64,000 nucleotides of DNA from Haloferax sp. Q22 (GTDB taxonomy: Archaea; Halobacteriota; Halobacteria; Halobacteriales; Haloferacaceae), in contig NZ_LOEP01000033.1 in NCBI RefSeq assembly GCF_001482285.1, forward strand, positions 62,001-126,000, in the 5' to 3' direction. A program made the position numbers and the translations under genes. The notes below the pieces were generated by a model, which did no database searches, was not told the origin of the DNA, and saw only the letters and a program-made list of their open reading frames with translations. This document shows, piece after piece, positions 1-8,908 of this stretch. The stretch's first letter is position 1, and each line of letters opens with the position of its first letter.

Positions 1-1322
1 CGGGCCTCATCGTGCTGGTTCTCCTCGCGACGTACCTCGCGTACGTCCTCGCGGGGCTCGTCCTCGGATACACGCTCCGCGGACAGCTCAACTCCATCGC
101 GACGCTGACGTTCTACATCGGCGTCTTCGCCATGCTGTCGCTCGCGCTCAACCTCCATTGGGGGTACACCGGGCTGTTCAACATCGGTATTGTCGGCTTC
201 ATGGCCGTCGGCGTCTACGTCACGGCCATCGTGACGAAGCCGACGTACGTCGCCGGCGGCGCAGCGCAGGTCGGCGGCCTCGGCCTGCCGCTTTGGGTCG
301 GCATCCTCGCTGGGATGCTCGCGGCCGCGCTCTTGGGACTCGTGGTTGCGCTCCCGGCGCTCCGGTTGCGGGCGGACTACTTGGCTATCGTCACCATCGC
401 CATGTCGGAAATCGTCCGGTTCAGCTTCCTCTCGGGCGAACTCCAGCAGTTCCAGCTGTTCGGTAACCGCGTCGGATTCGGCGGCGGGTCGGGTCTCATC
501 CTCGACTTCGCTCCGCCGCTGGAGGCGCTGCTTCGCGGCGTCGGTCTCTGGAACGGGTATCTCGGCTTCGTCGATGCCTTCCAAGTCCTCGTGCCGAGGA
601 ACCCCAAGCCAGTCGTCGACGGCCTCGTCTACGGGCTGTTGCTCCTCGGGTTCGTCGCGGCGTTCTACTGGCTTCTCAAGCGCACCGGCGAATCGCCGTT
701 CGGTCGCGTGCTGAAGGCCATCCGCGAGGACGAGGACGTCGCGAACGCCCTCGGAAAGAACACCGACCGGTTCAAAATCAAGTCGTTCATGCTCGGCTGT
801 GCGCTCATGGGGCTCGCCGGCATCCTCTGGCTCGTCCCGCAGGGCGCGGTGACCCCGAACTTCTTCCGCCCGCGCGTGACGTTCTTTGTCTGGATCGCAC
901 TCATCATCGGCGGGGCCGGTTCGAACACGGGGAGCGTCCTCGGCGGCGCCGTCTTCGCGGCGGTGCTCTACCAGGGGCCGCGGTACTTCCAGAACCTCGT
1001 GTCGGCGGTGTTCCCCAACCTCGACTCGCCGTCCGGCTTCGGGCAGGCCATCTCGCCGCTCATCTCGCAGTTCGACCCCGTGCCGTTCCTCCTGTACACG
1101 GTCGACAGCATCCGGCAGCTCCAACTGGTCGTGATGGGGCTCGTGCTCATCTGGCTGATGCACAACCGGCCGGAGGGGATGCTCGGCTACCGCAAGGAGA
1201 CGGCGTCCGTCATCCCGCTGTCGCGGCCGAAGTCGATGGCCGCCGACGGCGGCAGCGACGACTCGGTCCGCACCGACGGCGGCGTCGATTCCCCGGCTCA
1301 GGGAGGTGAGACCGATGAGTGA
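1..1322 (+). CDS. livM: Branched-chain amino acid ABC transporter permease LivM (5' partial)
   Basis: Membrane permease of a high-affinity branched-chain amino acid (or related amide) importer. The reading frame is open to the first base of the window, so the true start lies upstream; the first in-window start-like codon is GTG at 12. Hydrophobic segments fill most of the protein, and an N-terminal segment reads LHWGYTGLFNIGIVGF, typical of LivM. A polar tail of about 45 residues after the last helix (HNRPEGMLGYRKE) is acidic and probably cytoplasmic. The stop overlaps the livG start by 8 bases, so the genes are translationally coupled. A LivH-type permease is expected just upstream, outside the window. 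Confidence 0.93.
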   Translation, partial: GLIVLVLLATYLAYVLAGLVLGYTLRGQLNSIATLTFYIGVFAMLSLALNLHWGYTGLFNIGIVGFMAVGVYVTAIVTKPTYVAGGAAQVGGLGLPLWVGILAGMLAAALLGLVVALPALRLRADYLAIVTIAMSEIVRFSFLSGELQQFQLFGNRVGFGGGSGLILDFAPPLEALLRGVGLWNGYLGFVDAFQVLVPRNPKPVVDGLVYGLLLLGFVAAFYWLLKRTGESPFGRVLKAIREDEDVANALGKNTDRFKIKSFMLGCALMGLAGILWLVPQGAVTPNFFRPRVTFFVWIALIIGGAGSNTGSVLGGAVFAAVLYQGPRYFQNLVSAVFPNLDSPSGFGQAISPLISQFDPVPFLLYTVDSIRQLQLVVMGLVLIWLMHNRPEGMLGYRKETASVIPLSRPKSMAADGGSDDSVRTDGGVDSPAQGGETDE

Positions 1323-2178
1323 CGCCGCGGACCAGCCGGTCGAAGACGTAGCAAACAAGGTCGACGAAGGGGCGCTCGGCGCGTTCGCCTCCGGCGTCGA
1401 AACGTCGGTCGACTACCCGCTTCAGGTCGAAGGTCTGGAGAAGTCCTTCGGTGGCATCACCGCCGTCGACGGGGCCAGCTTCGAGGTCGAAGCCGGGTCG
1501 CTCACGGGTCTCATCGGCCCCAACGGGGCCGGCAAGTCGACGACGTTCAACCTCATCACGGGCATGCTCAAGCCCGACGCCGGCACGGTCACGTTCAACG
1601 GCGAGGACATTACCGGCGAGGAGCCGCACGAAATCGCCAATCGGGGGATGGTTCGGACGTTCCAGATCGCCCGCGAACTGAGCGAGATGACCGTCCTCGA
1701 GAACATGATGCTGGCGCCGAAACACCAGCGCGGCGAGACGCTGTGGCGCTCCGTCATGCCGGGCGTCCGCGACGACGTCCGCGAACAGGAAGAGGAACTG
1801 CTCGAACGCGTCTGGGAGGTGCTCGACTTCTTCGACATCGCCCACATCGCAGAGGAGTACGCGGGTAACCTCTCCGGCGGGCAGCGCAAGCTTCTCGAGA
1901 TGGCGCGGGCGCTTCTGACCGACCCAGACATGCTGCTCTTGGACGAGCCGTTCGCCGGGGTCAACCCCACACTGGAGAAGAAACTGCTCGAACACGTACA
2001 CGAACTCCGCGAGCAGGGCTACACGTTCCTGCTCGTCGAACACGACATGGACCTCATCATGAACAACTGTGAACACGTCATCGTCCTCCACCAGGGCTCG
2101 GTGCTCACGGAGGGGACGCCGGACGAGATTCGGAGCAACGAAGAGGTCATCGAGGCCTACCTCGGGGGCAACGTATGA
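1315..2178 (+). CDS. livG: Branched-chain amino acid ABC transporter ATP-binding protein LivG
   Basis: One of two cytoplasmic ATPases that drive the Liv importer. Visible motifs are Walker A GPNGAGKST, signature LSGGQRK, Walker B LLLDEPFAG and the switch histidine in LLVEHDMD. The 287-residue length includes an N-terminal acidic extension of about 35 residues before the ABC core (YPLQVEGLEKSFGG). I chose ATG 1315 because a purine-rich GGGAGGTGAG lies just before it; a GTG at 1306 is also in frame. The gene overlaps livM upstream and livF downstream (ATGA), so the three form one operon. Confidence 0.95.
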   Translation: MSDAADQPVEDVANKVDEGALGAFASGVETSVDYPLQVEGLEKSFGGITAVDGASFEVEAGSLTGLIGPNGAGKSTTFNLITGMLKPDAGTVTFNGEDITGEEPHEIANRGMVRTFQIARELSEMTVLENMMLAPKHQRGETLWRSVMPGVRDDVREQEEELLERVWEVLDFFDIAHIAEEYAGNLSGGQRKLLEMARALLTDPDMLLLDEPFAGVNPTLEKKLLEHVHELREQGYTFLLVEHDMDLIMNNCEHVIVLHQGSVLTEGTPDEIRSNEEVIEAYLGGNV

Positions 2179-2936
2179 GCGTCGACGCCAACACCGACGC
2201 GACGAGCGGTGCGGGCGTCGAAGGACGCGACGACGTGCTCCTTCGCGTCCGCGACCTCGACGCCGGCTACGGCGACCTCCAGATTCTCACCGACGTCGAC
2301 ATGGACGTGTTCGACGGCGAGTACGTCACCATCGTCGGGCCGAACGGGGCCGGCAAGTCGACGACGATGAAGTCGGTCTTCGGCCTGACCGCCCACATGG
2401 GCGGAACGGTCCAGTTCAAAGACGAGGATATCACCGGGCGTCGACCCGAAGACATCATCCACGTCGGCATCGGCTACGTCCCGCAGAACGACAACATCTT
2501 CCCGACGCTGACGGTCGAGGAGAACCTCGAGATGGGCGCGTACATCCTCGACGAGGTGCCACAGGACGCCATGGAGGCGGTCTACGAGCGGTTCCCCATC
2601 CTCAGAGAGCGGAAAGACCAGAAGGCGGGTACCATGTCCGGCGGGCAACAGCAGATGCTCGCGATGGGTCGCGCGCTCATGCTCGAACCCGACCTACTGC
2701 TCTTGGACGAGCCCTCGGCGGGCCTCGCACCCGACCTCGTCAAGGAGATGTTCGACAAAATCGACGAGATTAACGAGGCCGGCACGGCCATCCTGATGGT
2801 CGAACAGAACGCGAAGGAGGCGCTCCGGCGCTGCGACCGCGGCTACGTCCTCGCCAACGGACAGAACCGCTACATGGACACCGGCACCGCGCTTCTCGAA
2901 GACGAACAGGTCCGGCAGGACTTCCTCGGCGGATAG
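2175..2936 (+). CDS. livF: Branched-chain amino acid ABC transporter ATP-binding protein LivF
   Basis: Second ATPase of the Liv importer, expected to pair with LivG as a heterodimer under the LivH/LivM permeases. It shows Walker A GPNGAGKST, signature MSGGQQQML, Walker B LLLDEPSAGLAP and the typical LivF segment GIGYVPQNDNIFPTLTVEEN. Its 253 residues include a short acidic N-terminal extension common in haloarchaea. ATG 2175 overlaps the livG stop. The gene ends 40 bases from the end of the convergent lipoprotein gene, with a possible terminator in between. Confidence 0.95.
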   Translation: MSVDANTDATSGAGVEGRDDVLLRVRDLDAGYGDLQILTDVDMDVFDGEYVTIVGPNGAGKSTTMKSVFGLTAHMGGTVQFKDEDITGRRPEDIIHVGIGYVPQNDNIFPTLTVEENLEMGAYILDEVPQDAMEAVYERFPILRERKDQKAGTMSGGQQQMLAMGRALMLEPDLLLLDEPSAGLAPDLVKEMFDKIDEINEAGTAILMVEQNAKEALRRCDRGYVLANGQNRYMDTGTALLEDEQVRQDFLGG

Positions 2937-2975: not shown

Positions 2976-4136
2976 TCAGTCGCAGACGTACTGGAACGAC
3001 TCGACAGAGAGTCCGCCATCGAGCGTCACCGTCGTGTTCGTGTTCCAGCAGTAACACGCCGCGTAGGCGACCGTCTCCGACCCCACGGGCGTCTCGATGG
3101 TCAACTGGTACTTGTCGCCGATTGGAACGTCGAACGCGACGTTCGACTCGCCGGGTGGGACGGTCTGCGTCGTCTCCGAGACGACCGCGTCCTCGGAGCC
3201 GGTCCCGTCAGCGTCCGAGTCGCCACCACCGGCGTCCCCGGCGTCGGGTCGGAGGAGCGTCAGGGTCACGTCGCGTTCCGTCTCACCCTCGTTTTTCACG
3301 TGAACTGAGGCCCGTTTCGGCCACGCACAGCCGACTCGGATCGAACCGTCTTCCGCGACGAGGACCGCGAGCGTCGGCCACGCCCACTTCTCCGGGATGT
3401 GCCACTCGTGGGCCACGGTGCGTCCGTCTTCGGCCTCTACGAACACCTCGTAAGTGCCGTGGGACTTCACGAGCGCCGGCGTCGAAATCTCTCGGTCGGT
3501 CGCCGCGTCGAAGGCGTGTTCGAAAAAGCGAGTCCCGTCGTGTTCGATGGCGACGGTGAGCCGAACGTCGTCGTCGCTCCGGTTTCGAATCTTCGCGGTC
3601 GGCGGCGCGAAGATGTCCGTCGTGTCCGGAAACGAGTACGGGAGGTCGGCGTCGTCGAGGTCCGGCGTCACGCGCTGCCGCGGTTCGAGGACGGCGTCGG
3701 ACGTGACGACGAGTTCGAGGTGGCGCGCCTCGTCTGTGACCGTCCACTCGTAGTCGAGCGTCGCACCCGTTTCGAGTTCCGCGACGACGCGGAAGGAACC
3801 CTCACCGACGAGGTCGTTCTCGACACTCCGCCCGCGGCCGGGTCCCGCTCCGATGTCGAACGAACCGTCGAAGTGCGTCTCGTCGCCGTCGGTCACTCGG
3901 ACCGACAGCGTGTGTGACTCGTCGTCCTCGTTGACGACCGAGAGGCCGATGCTGGAGTCCGGCTCCGGTTCCGACGTGTCCGTCTCGGTCGTCGAATCAG
4001 TCGGCGAGTCAGTCGTCGCCGTGGTCGTCTGTGGGTTCGCGGGAGTCTCGACCGACTCGTCCGAGTCGCCGAGACAGCCGCCGACGAGCCCGAGGGCCGA
4101 GCCGGCGACCGTCGAGAGGAGGGCGCGGCGCTTCAT
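2976..4136 (-). CDS. Predicted Tat-exported lipoprotein with beta-sandwich repeats
   Basis: I do not recognise a named family. The N-terminus MKRRALLSTVAG, a hydrophobic stretch and the lipobox LVGGC (Cys21) indicate a haloarchaeal lipoprotein exported by the Tat route and anchored outside the cell. A Thr/Ser/Asp-rich spacer (about residues 25-60) follows. Then come three similar beta-rich stretches of about 100 residues whose wording (VVNEDDESHTLSVRV, IRNRSDDDVRLTVAIEH, VHVKNEGETERDVTLTL) suggests repeated Ig-like domains. A cysteine pair CYC lies near the end and another Cys is the next-to-last residue. Start 4136 is chosen because it gives the signal peptide; a longer frame begins at 4181. 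It is convergent with livF and not obviously part of the transporter. Confidence 0.8.
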   Translation of the reverse strand: MKRRALLSTVAGSALGLVGGCLGDSDESVETPANPQTTTATTDSPTDSTTETDTSEPEPDSSIGLSVVNEDDESHTLSVRVTDGDETHFDGSFDIGAGPGRGRSVENDLVGEGSFRVVAELETGATLDYEWTVTDEARHLELVVTSDAVLEPRQRVTPDLDDADLPYSFPDTTDIFAPPTAKIRNRSDDDVRLTVAIEHDGTRFFEHAFDAATDREISTPALVKSHGTYEVFVEAEDGRTVAHEWHIPEKWAWPTLAVLVAEDGSIRVGCAWPKRASVHVKNEGETERDVTLTLLRPDAGDAGGGDSDADGTGSEDAVVSETTQTVPPGESNVAFDVPIGDKYQLTIETPVGSETVAYAACYCWNTNTTVTLDGGLSVESFQYVCD

Positions 4137-4292
4137 CGACGTACACCTGTCAGCGGTCGTATGAGTGTCTTGTGCCGTCATGGACGCTCGGCGGGAGCGT
4201 GGTGGAACTGTGGTGGAGGCGTGACGCGGTGACCGAGCGCGGCCGCTCGTGGCGGCGGCGACGAAAGAAAAGTCGGGCCTGTCGGGTCGGTC

Positions 4293-5606
4293 TTAGTTCT
4301 CCGGGCCGGACAGCGCCGTCTCGATGACCGAGGAGTACGACGACTCGCCGATGTTGAACGCGACCTGATTGTACACTTCGCCGTCGAACGAGTCGCTGAA
4401 CACGTTCGAGAAGCGCTCCGAGAGCTGCTGGCCGTAGTCGTTGTTGACGTACAGCGTCGAGACCGAACTGACTTCGAGGCGCTCGGCCATGACCTGCGCC
4501 ATGACGCGGCCCTGCAGGAAGTCGGACGGTGCAGTCCGGAAGATGAAGTCGTTGTCTTCGAGGTTCGAGACGGACAGCGCCGTCGAGGACGGCGAGCAAC
4601 CGACGATTTCGTTCGGGATGAACGCCTGCTGTGAGACGGGGACGTTCACGCCGGACGACGCGGAGCCACAGACGGACGGGACGCCCGCGGAGACGAGCGA
4701 CTGCGCGGCGGAGACACCGGCGTCCGGGGACGTTTGGGTGTCTTCGATTTGCGCGTTAACGGAGAGTCCGGCCGGGTTGGCATCGTTGACCTGTATGACC
4801 GGAATCTGTGCGGCCTGAATCATCGGCGCACCGACGGCCGCGAGGTCACCAGTTTCGGGCAGGAGGATGCCGACCGACATCTCGCGGTCGGAACCGCCCG
4901 GGCCGCTGTCCGCGGACGGGCCGTTCCCGTCGGGGTTCTCGCCGGCGAACGACTGCGTCTCGACGCTCGACGTGGCGTTGTTCTCGGCGTCGAACTCCCA
5001 GATGGCGTACGCGGCTTCTGCCGGGTCGCCGTTCTCGTCGAAGTTAACCGACGAGGACGCGCCCTGGTAGTCGATGTCTTCGCCGTTCGCGGCAGCCTCG
5101 ATACCCTCGACGAGGTTGTCCGGTCCGACGGTCATTCCGCCGGGGTTCGCCATCCGGCGCATCTGGTCTTTGATGGCCGGACCGGAGTTCTCGCCGGCCG
5201 CAGCGTTCGAGAGCAGTTGAATCGCGACCGAGTCGTACGTCTGCGACGTGAAGACGCCAGGTGCAGAGCCGTATTCGTCCTGGAACAGCTGGTTGAACGT
5301 GTCTTGGTTCGGACCGCCGGCCGCCGGGGCCGTCCCGGTGACGTTCTCCATGTCGTTGCCGACCTGTCCGGGCATCGACCCAGAGCGCATTCCGTCGGGC
5401 ACGAGTATCTCCTCGCTCCCGTCGGACGCGCTGTAGTAGTCACGGAACAGTTGAATACCACTTTCGGGGTAGCCGATGACGACGAGCCCTTCGGGACCGC
5501 CGCCACCGCCACCGCCACCGATGCATCCGGATAAGCCAGTCAAGCCTGCCGCGCCCGCGGCTCCCACTCCCTTGAGGAAGTCGCGGCGTACGATATCACG
5601 TACCAT
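4293..5606 (-). CDS. livJ: Branched-chain amino acid ABC transporter substrate-binding lipoprotein, circularly permuted
   Basis: Extracellular binding protein expected to deliver substrate to the Liv permease. Residues 1-28 form a Tat lipoprotein signal (RRDFLKG, then LSGC with Cys28), followed by eight glycines. The order of the mature part is unusual. Residues about 38-225 (PEGLVVIGYPESG to DIDYQGASSSVNFDENGDP) correspond to the C-terminal half of the LivJ family. Residues about 243-437 (MSVGILLPETGDLAAVG, IEDTQTSPDAGVSAA, TLYVNNDYGQQL, ending ALSGPEN and stop) correspond to the N-terminal half. The normal junction would read GPEN-PEGLVV, so the halves are swapped around a Gly/Ser/Pro linker. 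Both halves are full length, in one frame and without stops. The gene is transcribed separately from livMGF. Confidence 0.93.
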   Translation of the reverse strand: MVRDIVRRDFLKGVGAAGAAGLTGLSGCIGGGGGGGGPEGLVVIGYPESGIQLFRDYYSASDGSEEILVPDGMRSGSMPGQVGNDMENVTGTAPAAGGPNQDTFNQLFQDEYGSAPGVFTSQTYDSVAIQLLSNAAAGENSGPAIKDQMRRMANPGGMTVGPDNLVEGIEAAANGEDIDYQGASSSVNFDENGDPAEAAYAIWEFDAENNATSSVETQSFAGENPDGNGPSADSGPGGSDREMSVGILLPETGDLAAVGAPMIQAAQIPVIQVNDANPAGLSVNAQIEDTQTSPDAGVSAAQSLVSAGVPSVCGSASSGVNVPVSQQAFIPNEIVGCSPSSTALSVSNLEDNDFIFRTAPSDFLQGRVMAQVMAERLEVSSVSTLYVNNDYGQQLSERFSNVFSDSFDGEVYNQVAFNIGESSYSSVIETALSGPEN

Positions 5607-5792: not shown

Positions 5793-6488
5793 ATGACTAT
5801 CCCGTCGTTCGTTATCGGTATCGCGGGGGGGAGCGGTGCCGGCAAGACCACCGTGGCCCGACTCATCACGGAGAACGTCGGCGAGTCCGTGACGCGGATT
5901 CCGATTGATAACTACTACAAAGACCAGAGTCACTTGGAGATGGACGAACGCGAGCAGGTGAACTACGACCACCCCTCGGCGTTTGAGTGGGGCCTCCTGT
6001 ACGAACAGCTCTCGGAGCTACTGGAGGGGAGAGCCGTCGAGATGCCGCAGTACGACTTCGAGATACACAACCGGAAACCCGAGCGGAACACCGTCGAACC
6101 GACCGACGTCATCATCCTCGAAGGGATTCTCGCGCTCTACGACGAGGACGTAAACGAGATGCTCGACCTCCGACTCTACGTCGAGACTGACGCCGACGTT
6201 CGCATCCTCCGGCGCATCCAGCGCGACGCTATCGACCGCGGACGCGACCTGCAGGGCGTCATCGACCAGTACCTCTCGACGGTCAAGCCGATGCACGAGC
6301 AGTTCATCGAGCCGACGAAGAAACACGCGGACCTCATCATTCCCGAGGGAGCCAACAGCGTCGCCGTCACGCTGCTCGAAGAGAAAGTCCAAGCGGAAGT
6401 CGAAGGCGACGAGACGCGCACCTGGGAGCGCGACGCTATCGAACGGAAAGTCCAAGAGCGGACCTCGTCCCGCGGGCCCGACAACTAA
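5793..6488 (+). CDS. udk: Uridine kinase
   Basis: Phosphorylates uridine (and probably cytidine) with a nucleoside triphosphate in pyrimidine salvage. The P-loop GIAGGSGAGKTTVARL is near the N-terminus, followed by IPIDNYYKDQSHL and the uridine-binding region YDHPSAFEW, then YDFEIHNRKPERNTVEP and DVIILEGILAL, all in family order. The 231-residue length is normal for the family. A TTTTATAT element at 5723-5730 would give a leader of roughly 40 bases. The gene stands alone, divergent from the livJ-type gene. Confidence 0.95.
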   Translation: MTIPSFVIGIAGGSGAGKTTVARLITENVGESVTRIPIDNYYKDQSHLEMDEREQVNYDHPSAFEWGLLYEQLSELLEGRAVEMPQYDFEIHNRKPERNTVEPTDVIILEGILALYDEDVNEMLDLRLYVETDADVRILRRIQRDAIDRGRDLQGVIDQYLSTVKPMHEQFIEPTKKHADLIIPEGANSVAVTLLEEKVQAEVEGDETRTWERDAIERKVQERTSSRGPDN

Positions 6489-6995: not shown

Positions 6996-7727
6996 ATGCG
7001 AGCGACCGAGCGCCCGACGTTCGAATCCGAGGCCAGCAAGCTGATTTACGAGTACGTCGAGCGGCATGGCACCGCCAAGCGAAACGTCCTCCTCGACGTT
7101 GCGCCCGTCTCGTCCGACGAGTTCAGAACCGAACTGGAGCGGCTGAAATCCCGCGGTTATCTCCAAGAAGACGGCGGCACGCTCCAGTTGGCGCTCGACG
7201 TGGGCGCTATCGAGGAACACGAGACCGACGCGGGAATCGTCACCATCCGACCGGGTCGCCAGCGGGACTTCGAGGGCCTCGTCGACGCGATTCGCGACGT
7301 GACCTCCGAAGAGACGTACGTCGTCGCCGAGACAATCGCCGAGCAACTCCTCTACGACGAGGCGGTCACGCGCCACAACCGGGTGGAGTCTCGGGTGTTC
7401 TTCGTGGCCACTATCGGCGAGGAGGTCGTCGGCTGGACGCACCTCGAACTCCCGCAGGTGTCGCGCATCCGCGAGACCGCCCAGCAGACCGTCGGCGTCA
7501 AGGAGGACTACCGCGGGTTGGGCATCGGGAGCCTCCTGCTTCGTCGCGGCCTCGACTGGGCCGAAGCCAACGGTTTCCGGAAGGTGTACAACAGCGTTCC
7601 GATGACGAACGACCGCGCGCTGGAGTTCCTCGGCGACCACGGCTGGGAGACCGAAGCGATTCGCAGGGACCACTACACCATCGGCGACGAGCACGTCGAC
7701 GAAGTGATGATGGCGTACCAGTTCTGA
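6996..7727 (+). CDS. Winged-helix/GNAT fusion protein
   Basis: A 243-residue protein with an N-terminal helix-turn-helix-like region (about 1-65: EASKLIYEYVERHGTAKRNV, then LERLKSRGYLQED). It is followed by a GNAT acetyltransferase domain (about 80-240). The acetyl-CoA loop reads VKEDYRGLGIGSLLLRRGLD, followed by NGFRKVYNSVPMTNDRALEF and LGDHGWETEAIRRDHY. It may be a regulator whose activity depends on acetyl-CoA, or an acetyltransferase that binds nucleic acid; the substrate is unknown. ATG 6996 fits an AAATATACG box at 6960-6968, about 32 bases upstream. A close paralog lies at 59997-60731. Confidence 0.88.
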   Translation: MRATERPTFESEASKLIYEYVERHGTAKRNVLLDVAPVSSDEFRTELERLKSRGYLQEDGGTLQLALDVGAIEEHETDAGIVTIRPGRQRDFEGLVDAIRDVTSEETYVVAETIAEQLLYDEAVTRHNRVESRVFFVATIGEEVVGWTHLELPQVSRIRETAQQTVGVKEDYRGLGIGSLLLRRGLDWAEANGFRKVYNSVPMTNDRALEFLGDHGWETEAIRRDHYTIGDEHVDEVMMAYQF

Positions 7728-7784
7728 GCGGGTTGTGGGCGGTGGGTCGCTTTTTGCGGGGTCGTTGGTGTCGCTTAGCGAGGG

Positions 7785-7809
7785 TGCGGTGGGACTGGGA
7801 TTTAAACCC
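7785..7809 (-). repeat. Partial copy of the 3' end of tRNA-Ser(UGA)
   Basis: Twenty-five bases match the 3' end of the neighbouring tRNA gene (7925-7949), with one mismatch at 7804 versus 7944. The match covers the T-arm, acceptor strand, discriminator base and two flanking bases, in the same orientation, 140 bp away. A further inverted copy of 12 bases (7850-7861) can pair with 7792-7803. Duplicated tRNA 3' ends are classic marks left by integrating elements, but the space between is too small to hold one now. Confidence 0.75.
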
Positions 7810-7926
7810 CACTCGCTCCGCTCACGTCGTTCGCTCCGCTCGCTGCTTCAAATCCCAGTCCGTCTCCGATTTCCACTCACAGAGCCGCGCAGATGCCACT
7901 GCGCGGCGTAGGATTCGTGGAAAATG

Positions 7927-8010
7927 CGGTGGGACTGGGATTTGAACCCAGGATTCCGTGAGGAAACCTGCTTTCAAGGCAGGCGCGTTAGGCCACTCCG
8001 CCATCCCACC
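7927..8010 (-). tRNA. tRNA-Ser (anticodon UGA)
   Basis: The minus strand folds into a complete class II tRNA. The acceptor pairs GGTGGGA with TCCCACC, with G as discriminator base. The anticodon stem-loop CCTGCCTTGAAAGCAGG carries anticodon TGA. A long variable arm, as expected for serine, is followed by the T-arm CTGGGTTCAAATCCCAG. It reads UCA codons. CCA is not encoded. It stands alone between the winged-helix/GNAT gene and the DUF2064 gene. Confidence 0.95.
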
Positions 8011-8056
8011 TTCGCACGACAGTTTTGCGTCGGATACCTAAGTGTTGTCGCTTCGC

Positions 8057-8812
8057 TCAGTCGCGGACGAGTTCCAACACGCCGTCCGTCGATTCGACTC
8101 GAAGCCCCTTCTCGAAGACGAACGTCGTCGTGTGCTCGGGGACGAGGCGCTCGGATTCGACCCGGGAGCGGAGCATCGGGACGACCGTGGCGAGGTCCGC
8201 GCCGGTTTCGAGGACGGGAAGCATCGGGACGTAGTCGAGGCCGTGGCCCGCGTCGTCGGCGCGCTCGGCGAGCGTCTCGACTTCCGGCTCCGCGTAGGCG
8301 TCGGTGAAGTCGATGGGGTCGAGGAAGCCCGAGAAGTAGACGCGCCCTTCCGTCGAGGGCCCGAGGACGACCGGCGTGCTCCGGAGTTTCATCGCCGCGC
8401 TGTCGATGTGGGTGCGCCCGAGAAGCGGCGCGACCGGGCGGACGACGGCGACCGAGTGGACCTCCTCCTCGTTGAGGAGATGCGAGACGGTGTTGCCCGC
8501 GCGGGCGGAGAACGACGACCCGACCTGCGGTTCGAACCGCGCGTCGTCGGTGCCGCCGAGGGCGTCGGCGACGACGCTCCGAATCTCGGCCTCCGAGTCG
8601 TGGTCCCCGGCGAACTCGTCGGGGATGTCGTCCTCGGTGCGGTAGTTGACGAGGAGGTCGCCGCCCGACCGCTCGACGGCGATACAGACGTCTTTGAGCA
8701 TCGCGGCGTAGAGCTCCGCGGCTTCGGCTTCGGTGAGCGGACTCGTCTCCGCGAGTTCCGAAAGCACCAGTCCCGGCCGCGGCGGTTCGGCGAGTACGGC
8801 GATGACCGTCAT
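8057..8812 (-). CDS. DUF2064 family protein (glycosyltransferase-like)
   Basis: A 251-residue protein resembling DUF2064, a family with a nucleotide-diphospho-sugar transferase-like fold whose reactions are mostly unproven. It begins MTVIAVLAEPPRPGLVL and contains LTEAEAAELYAAMLKD, the strand GGDLLVNYR and VLGPSTEGRVYFSGF, matching the arrangement in that family. No signal peptide or membrane segment is visible. It may form a unit with the uracil-DNA glycosylase upstream on the same strand (gap about 96 bp), but the functional link is unclear. Confidence 0.82.
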   Translation of the reverse strand: MTVIAVLAEPPRPGLVLSELAETSPLTEAEAAELYAAMLKDVCIAVERSGGDLLVNYRTEDDIPDEFAGDHDSEAEIRSVVADALGGTDDARFEPQVGSSFSARAGNTVSHLLNEEEVHSVAVVRPVAPLLGRTHIDSAAMKLRSTPVVLGPSTEGRVYFSGFLDPIDFTDAYAEPEVETLAERADDAGHGLDYVPMLPVLETGADLATVVPMLRSRVESERLVPEHTTTFVFEKGLRVESTDGVLELVRD

Positions 8813-8908
8813 ACCCTCCCCTCGCGCCGGGGAACCCTTGAACCCGCCGCTTGTGGCCCGGCGAATCGGAGGCCGGCGAAGACTGGACCCTCCGCGTACC
8901 GCCCCGTC

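Follow-up and report, generated by a model that had tools for sequence, protein, structure and literature searches.

A Naturally Circularly Permuted LivJ-Type Lipoprotein beside livMGF Genes in Haloarchaea, with Probably Recurrent Permutation at One Loop

Introduction

Can a substrate-binding protein (SBP) of the LivJ type (type I, Venus-flytrap) have the two halves of its chain exchanged, or does such an order betray a faulty sequence? The question is raised by a lipoprotein gene of Haloferax sp. Q22, located in a window of 64,000 nucleotides (the whole stretch of DNA that was analysed). The initial annotation proposed that the half which normally ends the chain (B) here precedes the half which normally begins it (A), and it named a chimeric assembly or a rearranged locus as the alternative. 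Hundreds of circular permutations are known from protein evolution (PMC3320104), and cpRAS is one of the natural cases (PMC2430557). A search of the open-access literature, with subscription papers and preprints outside its scope, found no account of a LivJ-type protein with permuted halves.

The Permuted Gene and Its Neighbours

The open reading frame starts with ATG, and its product carries a Tat lipobox signal, RRDFLKGVGAAGAAGLTGLSGC, at the N-terminus; the Pfam TAT_signal profile matched residues 7-24 weakly, below its cut-off. The B half opens with PEGLVVIGYP and keeps the canonical C-terminal tail. The A half ends with SSYSSVIETALSGPEN, and the new C-terminus lies at the canonical junction between A and B. 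The coordinates of all parts are collected in Table 1.

Table 1. Positions in the window of the permuted gene, its parts, and the neighbouring genes.
Feature	Position	Strand	Basis or remark
LivM-type permease	12..1322	+	PF02653; best NCBIfam match LivM, below cut-off
LivG-type ATPase	1306..2178	+	PF00005 and PF12399; best NCBIfam match LivG, below cut-off
LivF-type ATPase	2175..2936	+	PF00005; best NCBIfam match LivF, below cut-off
Permuted LivJ-type substrate-binding lipoprotein	4293..5606	-	437 aa; signal, then B, the linker, and A
A half (canonical N-terminal half), residues 241-437	4296..4886	-	PF13458 3-186; structural superposition
Linker from former C-terminus to former N-terminus, residues about 213-240, SSVETQSFAGENPDGNGPSADSGPGGSD	4887..4970	-	Low pLDDT, relaxed selection
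B half (canonical C-terminal half), residues 38-226	4929..5495	-	ANF_receptor profile 233-351; colinear with canonical orthologs over their C-terminal half
Tat signal peptide, lipobox Cys (residue 28), and Gly-rich spacer, residues 1-37	5496..5606	-	Sequence
Uridine kinase (udk), marking the orthologous locus in canonical-order genomes	5793..6488	+	NCBIfam udk above cut-off; synteny

The gene is convergent with livM-livG-livF and divergent from udk. It is thereby linked to genes of a branched-chain amino acid ABC transporter, whose Liv matches all lie below the NCBIfam cut-offs. Orthologs with the canonical order, which share the same type of Tat lipoprotein signal, adjoin livF at the same place, and five of them (L072, L073, L074, L076, and L090) also adjoin udk. 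The swap therefore arose within this operon setting or entered it by exchange. Between livF and the SBP gene lies a predicted lipoprotein gene without a Pfam match (2976-4181, minus strand); among the loci compared, a relative at the matching place was seen in L054 only.

Order of the Two Halves

The 437-aa protein clearly belongs to the family, exceeding the cut-offs of PF13458 (Peripla_BP_6; 89 bits against 31.7) and PF01094 (ANF_receptor; 61 bits against 25.4). Nevertheless, it does not have the colinear chain order of LivJ-type proteins and must be regarded as a permuted relative, with B (residues 38-226) before A (239-437). Profile positions 3-186 of PF13458 fall on protein residues 244-431, meaning that the N-terminal part of the profile lies at the C-terminal end of the protein. 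When the halves were scanned separately, the A half matched PF13458 3-186 and PF01094 13-164, and the B half matched positions 233-351 of the 353 in PF01094. In the canonical ortholog L072, PF13458 1-312 was matched as a single colinear stretch. Sequence matches to solved LivJ-type proteins agree: query residues 242-429 correspond to chain residues 5-194, and 4gnr gave a second match, of query residues 103-159 to chain residues 266-320.

A scan of 114 proteins with half profiles found 57 permuted chains and 57 canonical ones, with near-full coverage. The permuted gene is matched by canonical orthologs at about 45-58% identity per half. The initial annotation would have failed if family members of canonical order had aligned colinearly over the full length; they align only as two swapped pieces, and the proposed swap is borne out by the Pfam profiles, the separate scans, the solved proteins, and the half-profile counts alike. 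Each half is thus homologous to the half at the other end of a relative, both belong to one gene product, and the old termini are joined within it.

Occurrence among Haloarchaea

The comparison with other Haloferax genomes proposed at the outset gave a uniform result. All 15 Haloferax species searched have the full-length gene, colinear with the query at 88-99% identity and therefore with the same half order. An intact colinear copy was present in 109 of 170 genomes of the family, and one further copy was interrupted by an insertion; some of the remaining genomes matched as two halves with their positions exchanged. When the order was sampled evenly, genomes with permuted copies came from no fewer than nine family codes (f1, f4, f5, f6, f7, f8, f11, f12, and f17). 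A search of named genomes yielded 79 loci with 84 SBP proteins, every one of them permuted and some encoded on closed chromosomes (CP071306, CP040678, and NZ_CP085301 among them). The genera concerned include Haloferax, Haloarcula, Halorubrum, Haladaptatus, Haloquadratum, Halobellus, Halorussus, and Actinarchaeum.

In Haloferax and its neighbours, dN/dS was about 0.12-0.3 in the halves and about 0.4-0.5 in the linker, values which indicate that both halves are under purifying selection and the linker less so. An assembly chimera or a strain-specific rearrangement of this one locus, for which only the oddity itself and the draft state of the source genome (56 contigs) speak, can be dismissed, because full-length colinear copies recur in each of the 15 Haloferax species, in numerous independent assemblies of this and other families, and on closed chromosomes, and because selection acts along the whole gene. 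The arrangement is fixed in natural lineages, and natural circular permutation is the right reading of the gene.

Outside Halobacteriales, the search covered a phylum sample and plasmid records. No permuted form was seen in the phylum sample or by tblastn against 72,556 plasmid records. The full-length hits among the plasmids were each split in two, and three of them, on checking, proved canonical.

Several individual loci deserve mention. Five genomes (G134, G090, G164, G188, and G146) hold both permuted and canonical-order LivJ-type genes and can be used as internal controls. In G120, of the Halorubrum-type group, a transposase gene assigned to the ISH3 family by an NCBIfam match above the cut-off splits a permuted SBP gene, with remnants on either side (L070:5076-7874). 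In a Haloquadratum-type genome, another permuted copy lies some 11 kb away from the first, its A half cut by a run of Ns (L060:15940-17757). Haladaptatus-type loci (L151, L152, and L153) carry a tandem pair of permuted SBP genes, e.g., L151:6071-7450 and 7557-8882; the second copy has no recognisable lipobox Cys, so its product may be secreted free rather than anchored.

The Break and the Linker

In canonical proteins, which have A before B and no inner linker, the end of the A profile and the start of the B profile are separated by exactly three residues in all cases (e.g., SALSDD-PDLLVVIGYP). In permuted chains, the tail beyond A is only 1-5 residues long, with the exception of one copy cut by assembly Ns, and B begins at P[DE], behind the signal and spacer. 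Consequently, the chain is broken precisely at the loop that leads from helix to strand in canonical proteins (...SALS-x-x-PDLLVVIGYP), and a flexible linker of 26-31 aa bridges the old termini. This linker opens with the tail of the native C-terminus (ET.DT..FE) and leads into strand 1 of the native protein (R[TE]....VGIL). Linkers are conserved within each permuted group and differ among groups. No break at any other site was seen among the 114 proteins.

The proposal of a clean break at the normal junction holds as far as the position is concerned, since the break sits at the canonical A/B junction. The part of it that relied on the C-terminal GPEN does not hold: this tail is limited to Haloferax and a few near relatives, and other proteins end in SN, SSGN, SE, or SAPDS. 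The similar ENPDG of the linker had been suggested as a scar of recombination. This idea was rejected, as ENPDG is the ordinary linker of the main permuted group and not a copy of the junction, GPEN is unconserved past Haloferax and its near relatives, and no meaningful DNA repeat was found at the break.

Predicted Fold

An AlphaFold2 model, built with 52 permuted homologs and numbered from PEGLVV, is a confident prediction of canonical type (pLDDT 86.9, pTM 0.88). Only one stretch of three or more residues falls below pLDDT 50, namely residues 184-191 in the linker. With VIA-align, model residues 204-399 superposed in shifted register on residues 1-195 of LivJ-type structures at an rmsd of 2.0-2.5 Å. 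The superposition on 4n0q_B 23-216 gave Z 15.2 and rmsd 2.0 Å over 193 residues, and 3ipc and 3ip5 behaved alike. The two-lobe flytrap fold is seen in the predicted model, with the B half placed by its sequence and by the joint model. A model of a group ii protein (see below; pLDDT 83, pTM 0.80) showed the same shifted register with a lower Z. Foldseek and VIA-align are sequential and match one half at a time; for this reason, the missing full-length structural match is no evidence against the fold.

The first element of the model is a strand (3-7) and the last is a helix (388-395), which places the new termini in a helix-to-strand loop. Loops of this kind in Rossmann-like lobes are found at the pole that faces away from the ligand cleft, and in lobe I the corresponding pole holds the canonical N-terminus. 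The motifs SPSST, ASS, YGQ, and GYP.SG are conserved in both chain orders, and some of them line the cleft in LivJ. Taken together, the two halves share their relatives and are kept conserved by purifying selection, and the predicted fold is that of the canonical protein.

One Origin or Several

For the SBP trees, permuted halves were first restored to canonical order. In the trees of the halves as well as in the livMGF trees, the permuted proteins fall into three or four groups that canonical proteins keep apart. Group i, the main permuted group, comprises Haloferax and most others. Group ii consists of part of Halorubrum and relatives, with L076, L090, L198, and L169 as its closest canonical proteins. 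Group iii is Haloarcula, and group iv is Actinarchaeum, which forms a long branch; according to the livMGF tree, groups iii and iv may be one group.

The careful tree of A and B together required four changes of order, all four forced by the starred branches, and a single permuted clade appeared in 0% of 200 bootstrap trees. The A-half tree required four changes, three of them forced. As an independent check, the livMGF tree joined group ii with L076/L090/L198 and groups iii and iv with L087/L170, a split that matches the SBP tree. In AU tests, which are weakened because the groups were defined only once the first tree had been inspected, one permuted clade was rejected for livMGF (p 0.00027), for SBP and livMGF combined (p about 1e-142), and modestly for SBP alone (p 0.035), and groups i and ii together gave p 0.038 for SBP.

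The alternative is a single ancient permutation in a haloarchaeal ancestor, followed by several reversions to canonical order, or by gene conversion or operon exchange involving canonical copies; the groups would then merely seem separate. All groups share one break position, give or take a few residues, linker lengths are alike, and the group iv linker GGSDGGGGSDSIPGSSSDR resembles some group i linkers SPDGSGPSADSIPGG, as one origin would lead one to expect. The B-half tree, with three changes of which one is forced, does not by itself require more than one origin, and canonical and permuted genes coexist in G134, G090, G164, and G188. Against this, the linkers of groups i, ii, and iii have no clear homology, the outgroups outside Halobacteriales are all canonical, and the tree then needs more reversions than gains. 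Gene conversion would, moreover, have to affect both halves and yet leave the partner livMGF genes concordant. A single origin is therefore unlikely, and recurrent permutation at one site, to which the scattering of permuted groups among canonical proteins points, is the better supported and a probable account.

Mechanism, Function, and Retention

The protein is very probably a functional natural circular permutant of a LivJ-type lipoprotein that is partnered with the adjacent livMGF genes; the permutation is probably recurrent, and the anchor would be shifted. Because the tail of the native C-terminus and the start of native strand 1 both survive in the linker, each event may have proceeded through in-frame tandem duplication (permutation by duplication), in which two copies fused head to tail would once have been present and would have given rise to the present linker. 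No duplicated intermediates (ABAB, ABA, or BAB) were seen in the 114-protein set or among the 84 SBPs of named genomes, and tandem permuted genes were seen in Haladaptatus only.

The protein is predicted to bind an amino acid or a similar ligand and to deliver it to LivHMGF, as in other LivJ proteins. The ligand cleft would be unchanged. The lipid anchor, however, would leave the outer pole of lobe I for that of lobe II: the lipid-anchored N-terminus now enters lobe II, and the receptor would hang by the other lobe beside the transporter. As for livJ genes in general, several of those of H. walsbyi are expressed above average (PMC5496347).

Why the permuted order was kept is a separate matter. 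The permutation may be neutral: termini are tolerated in this loop, liv clusters often undergo tandem duplication, and drift would have fixed the new order in several lineages with function unchanged. This is quite plausible, if a little short of probable, and, since it concerns only retention, it is compatible with a functional, recurrent permutant in everything except the anchor step. A loop within a helix-strand unit is a usual site of tolerated permutation, tandem SBP genes do occur at the permuted locus in Haladaptatus, and the ligand-side motifs are common to both orders. Neutrality explains less readily why the same loop was used each time, with no other break in 114 proteins, where selection or strong structural constraint fits better, and why the order has been retained so widely over many genera. 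A more tentative suggestion is that the permutation is convergent and selected, the same loop having become the termini three or four times because moving the anchor from lobe I to lobe II alters presentation to LivHM at the cell surface.

Conclusions

The permuted protein resembles LivJ/LivK (PF13458 and PF01094; PDB 4n0q, 3ipc, and 4gnr) in both halves, in the order of motifs within each half, in its predicted fold, and in its livMGF neighbours. It differs in its swapped halves, its termini in what is probably a lobe II loop, its extra linker, and an anchor that would sit on the other lobe. Other natural circular permutants, such as saposin/swaposin, transhydrogenases, DNA methyltransferases, and cpRAS, represent the same kind of event, and duplication is the route usually proposed for them. 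In contrast to those, the present case concerns a lipid-anchored transport receptor, operons that are close relatives carry one order or the other, and three or four groups have the same break.

Although natural circular permutants are familiar, cases in which genetically tractable organisms have both orders in closely related operons, and in which several lineages show the same break, are uncommon. Colinear searches and annotation split permuted proteins into two half-matches and thus hide the relationship. These proteins offer natural examples of tolerated termini in the flytrap scaffold, which is widely used for biosensors. Since the same operon can take either order, the reason why haloarchaea keep the permutation becomes testable.
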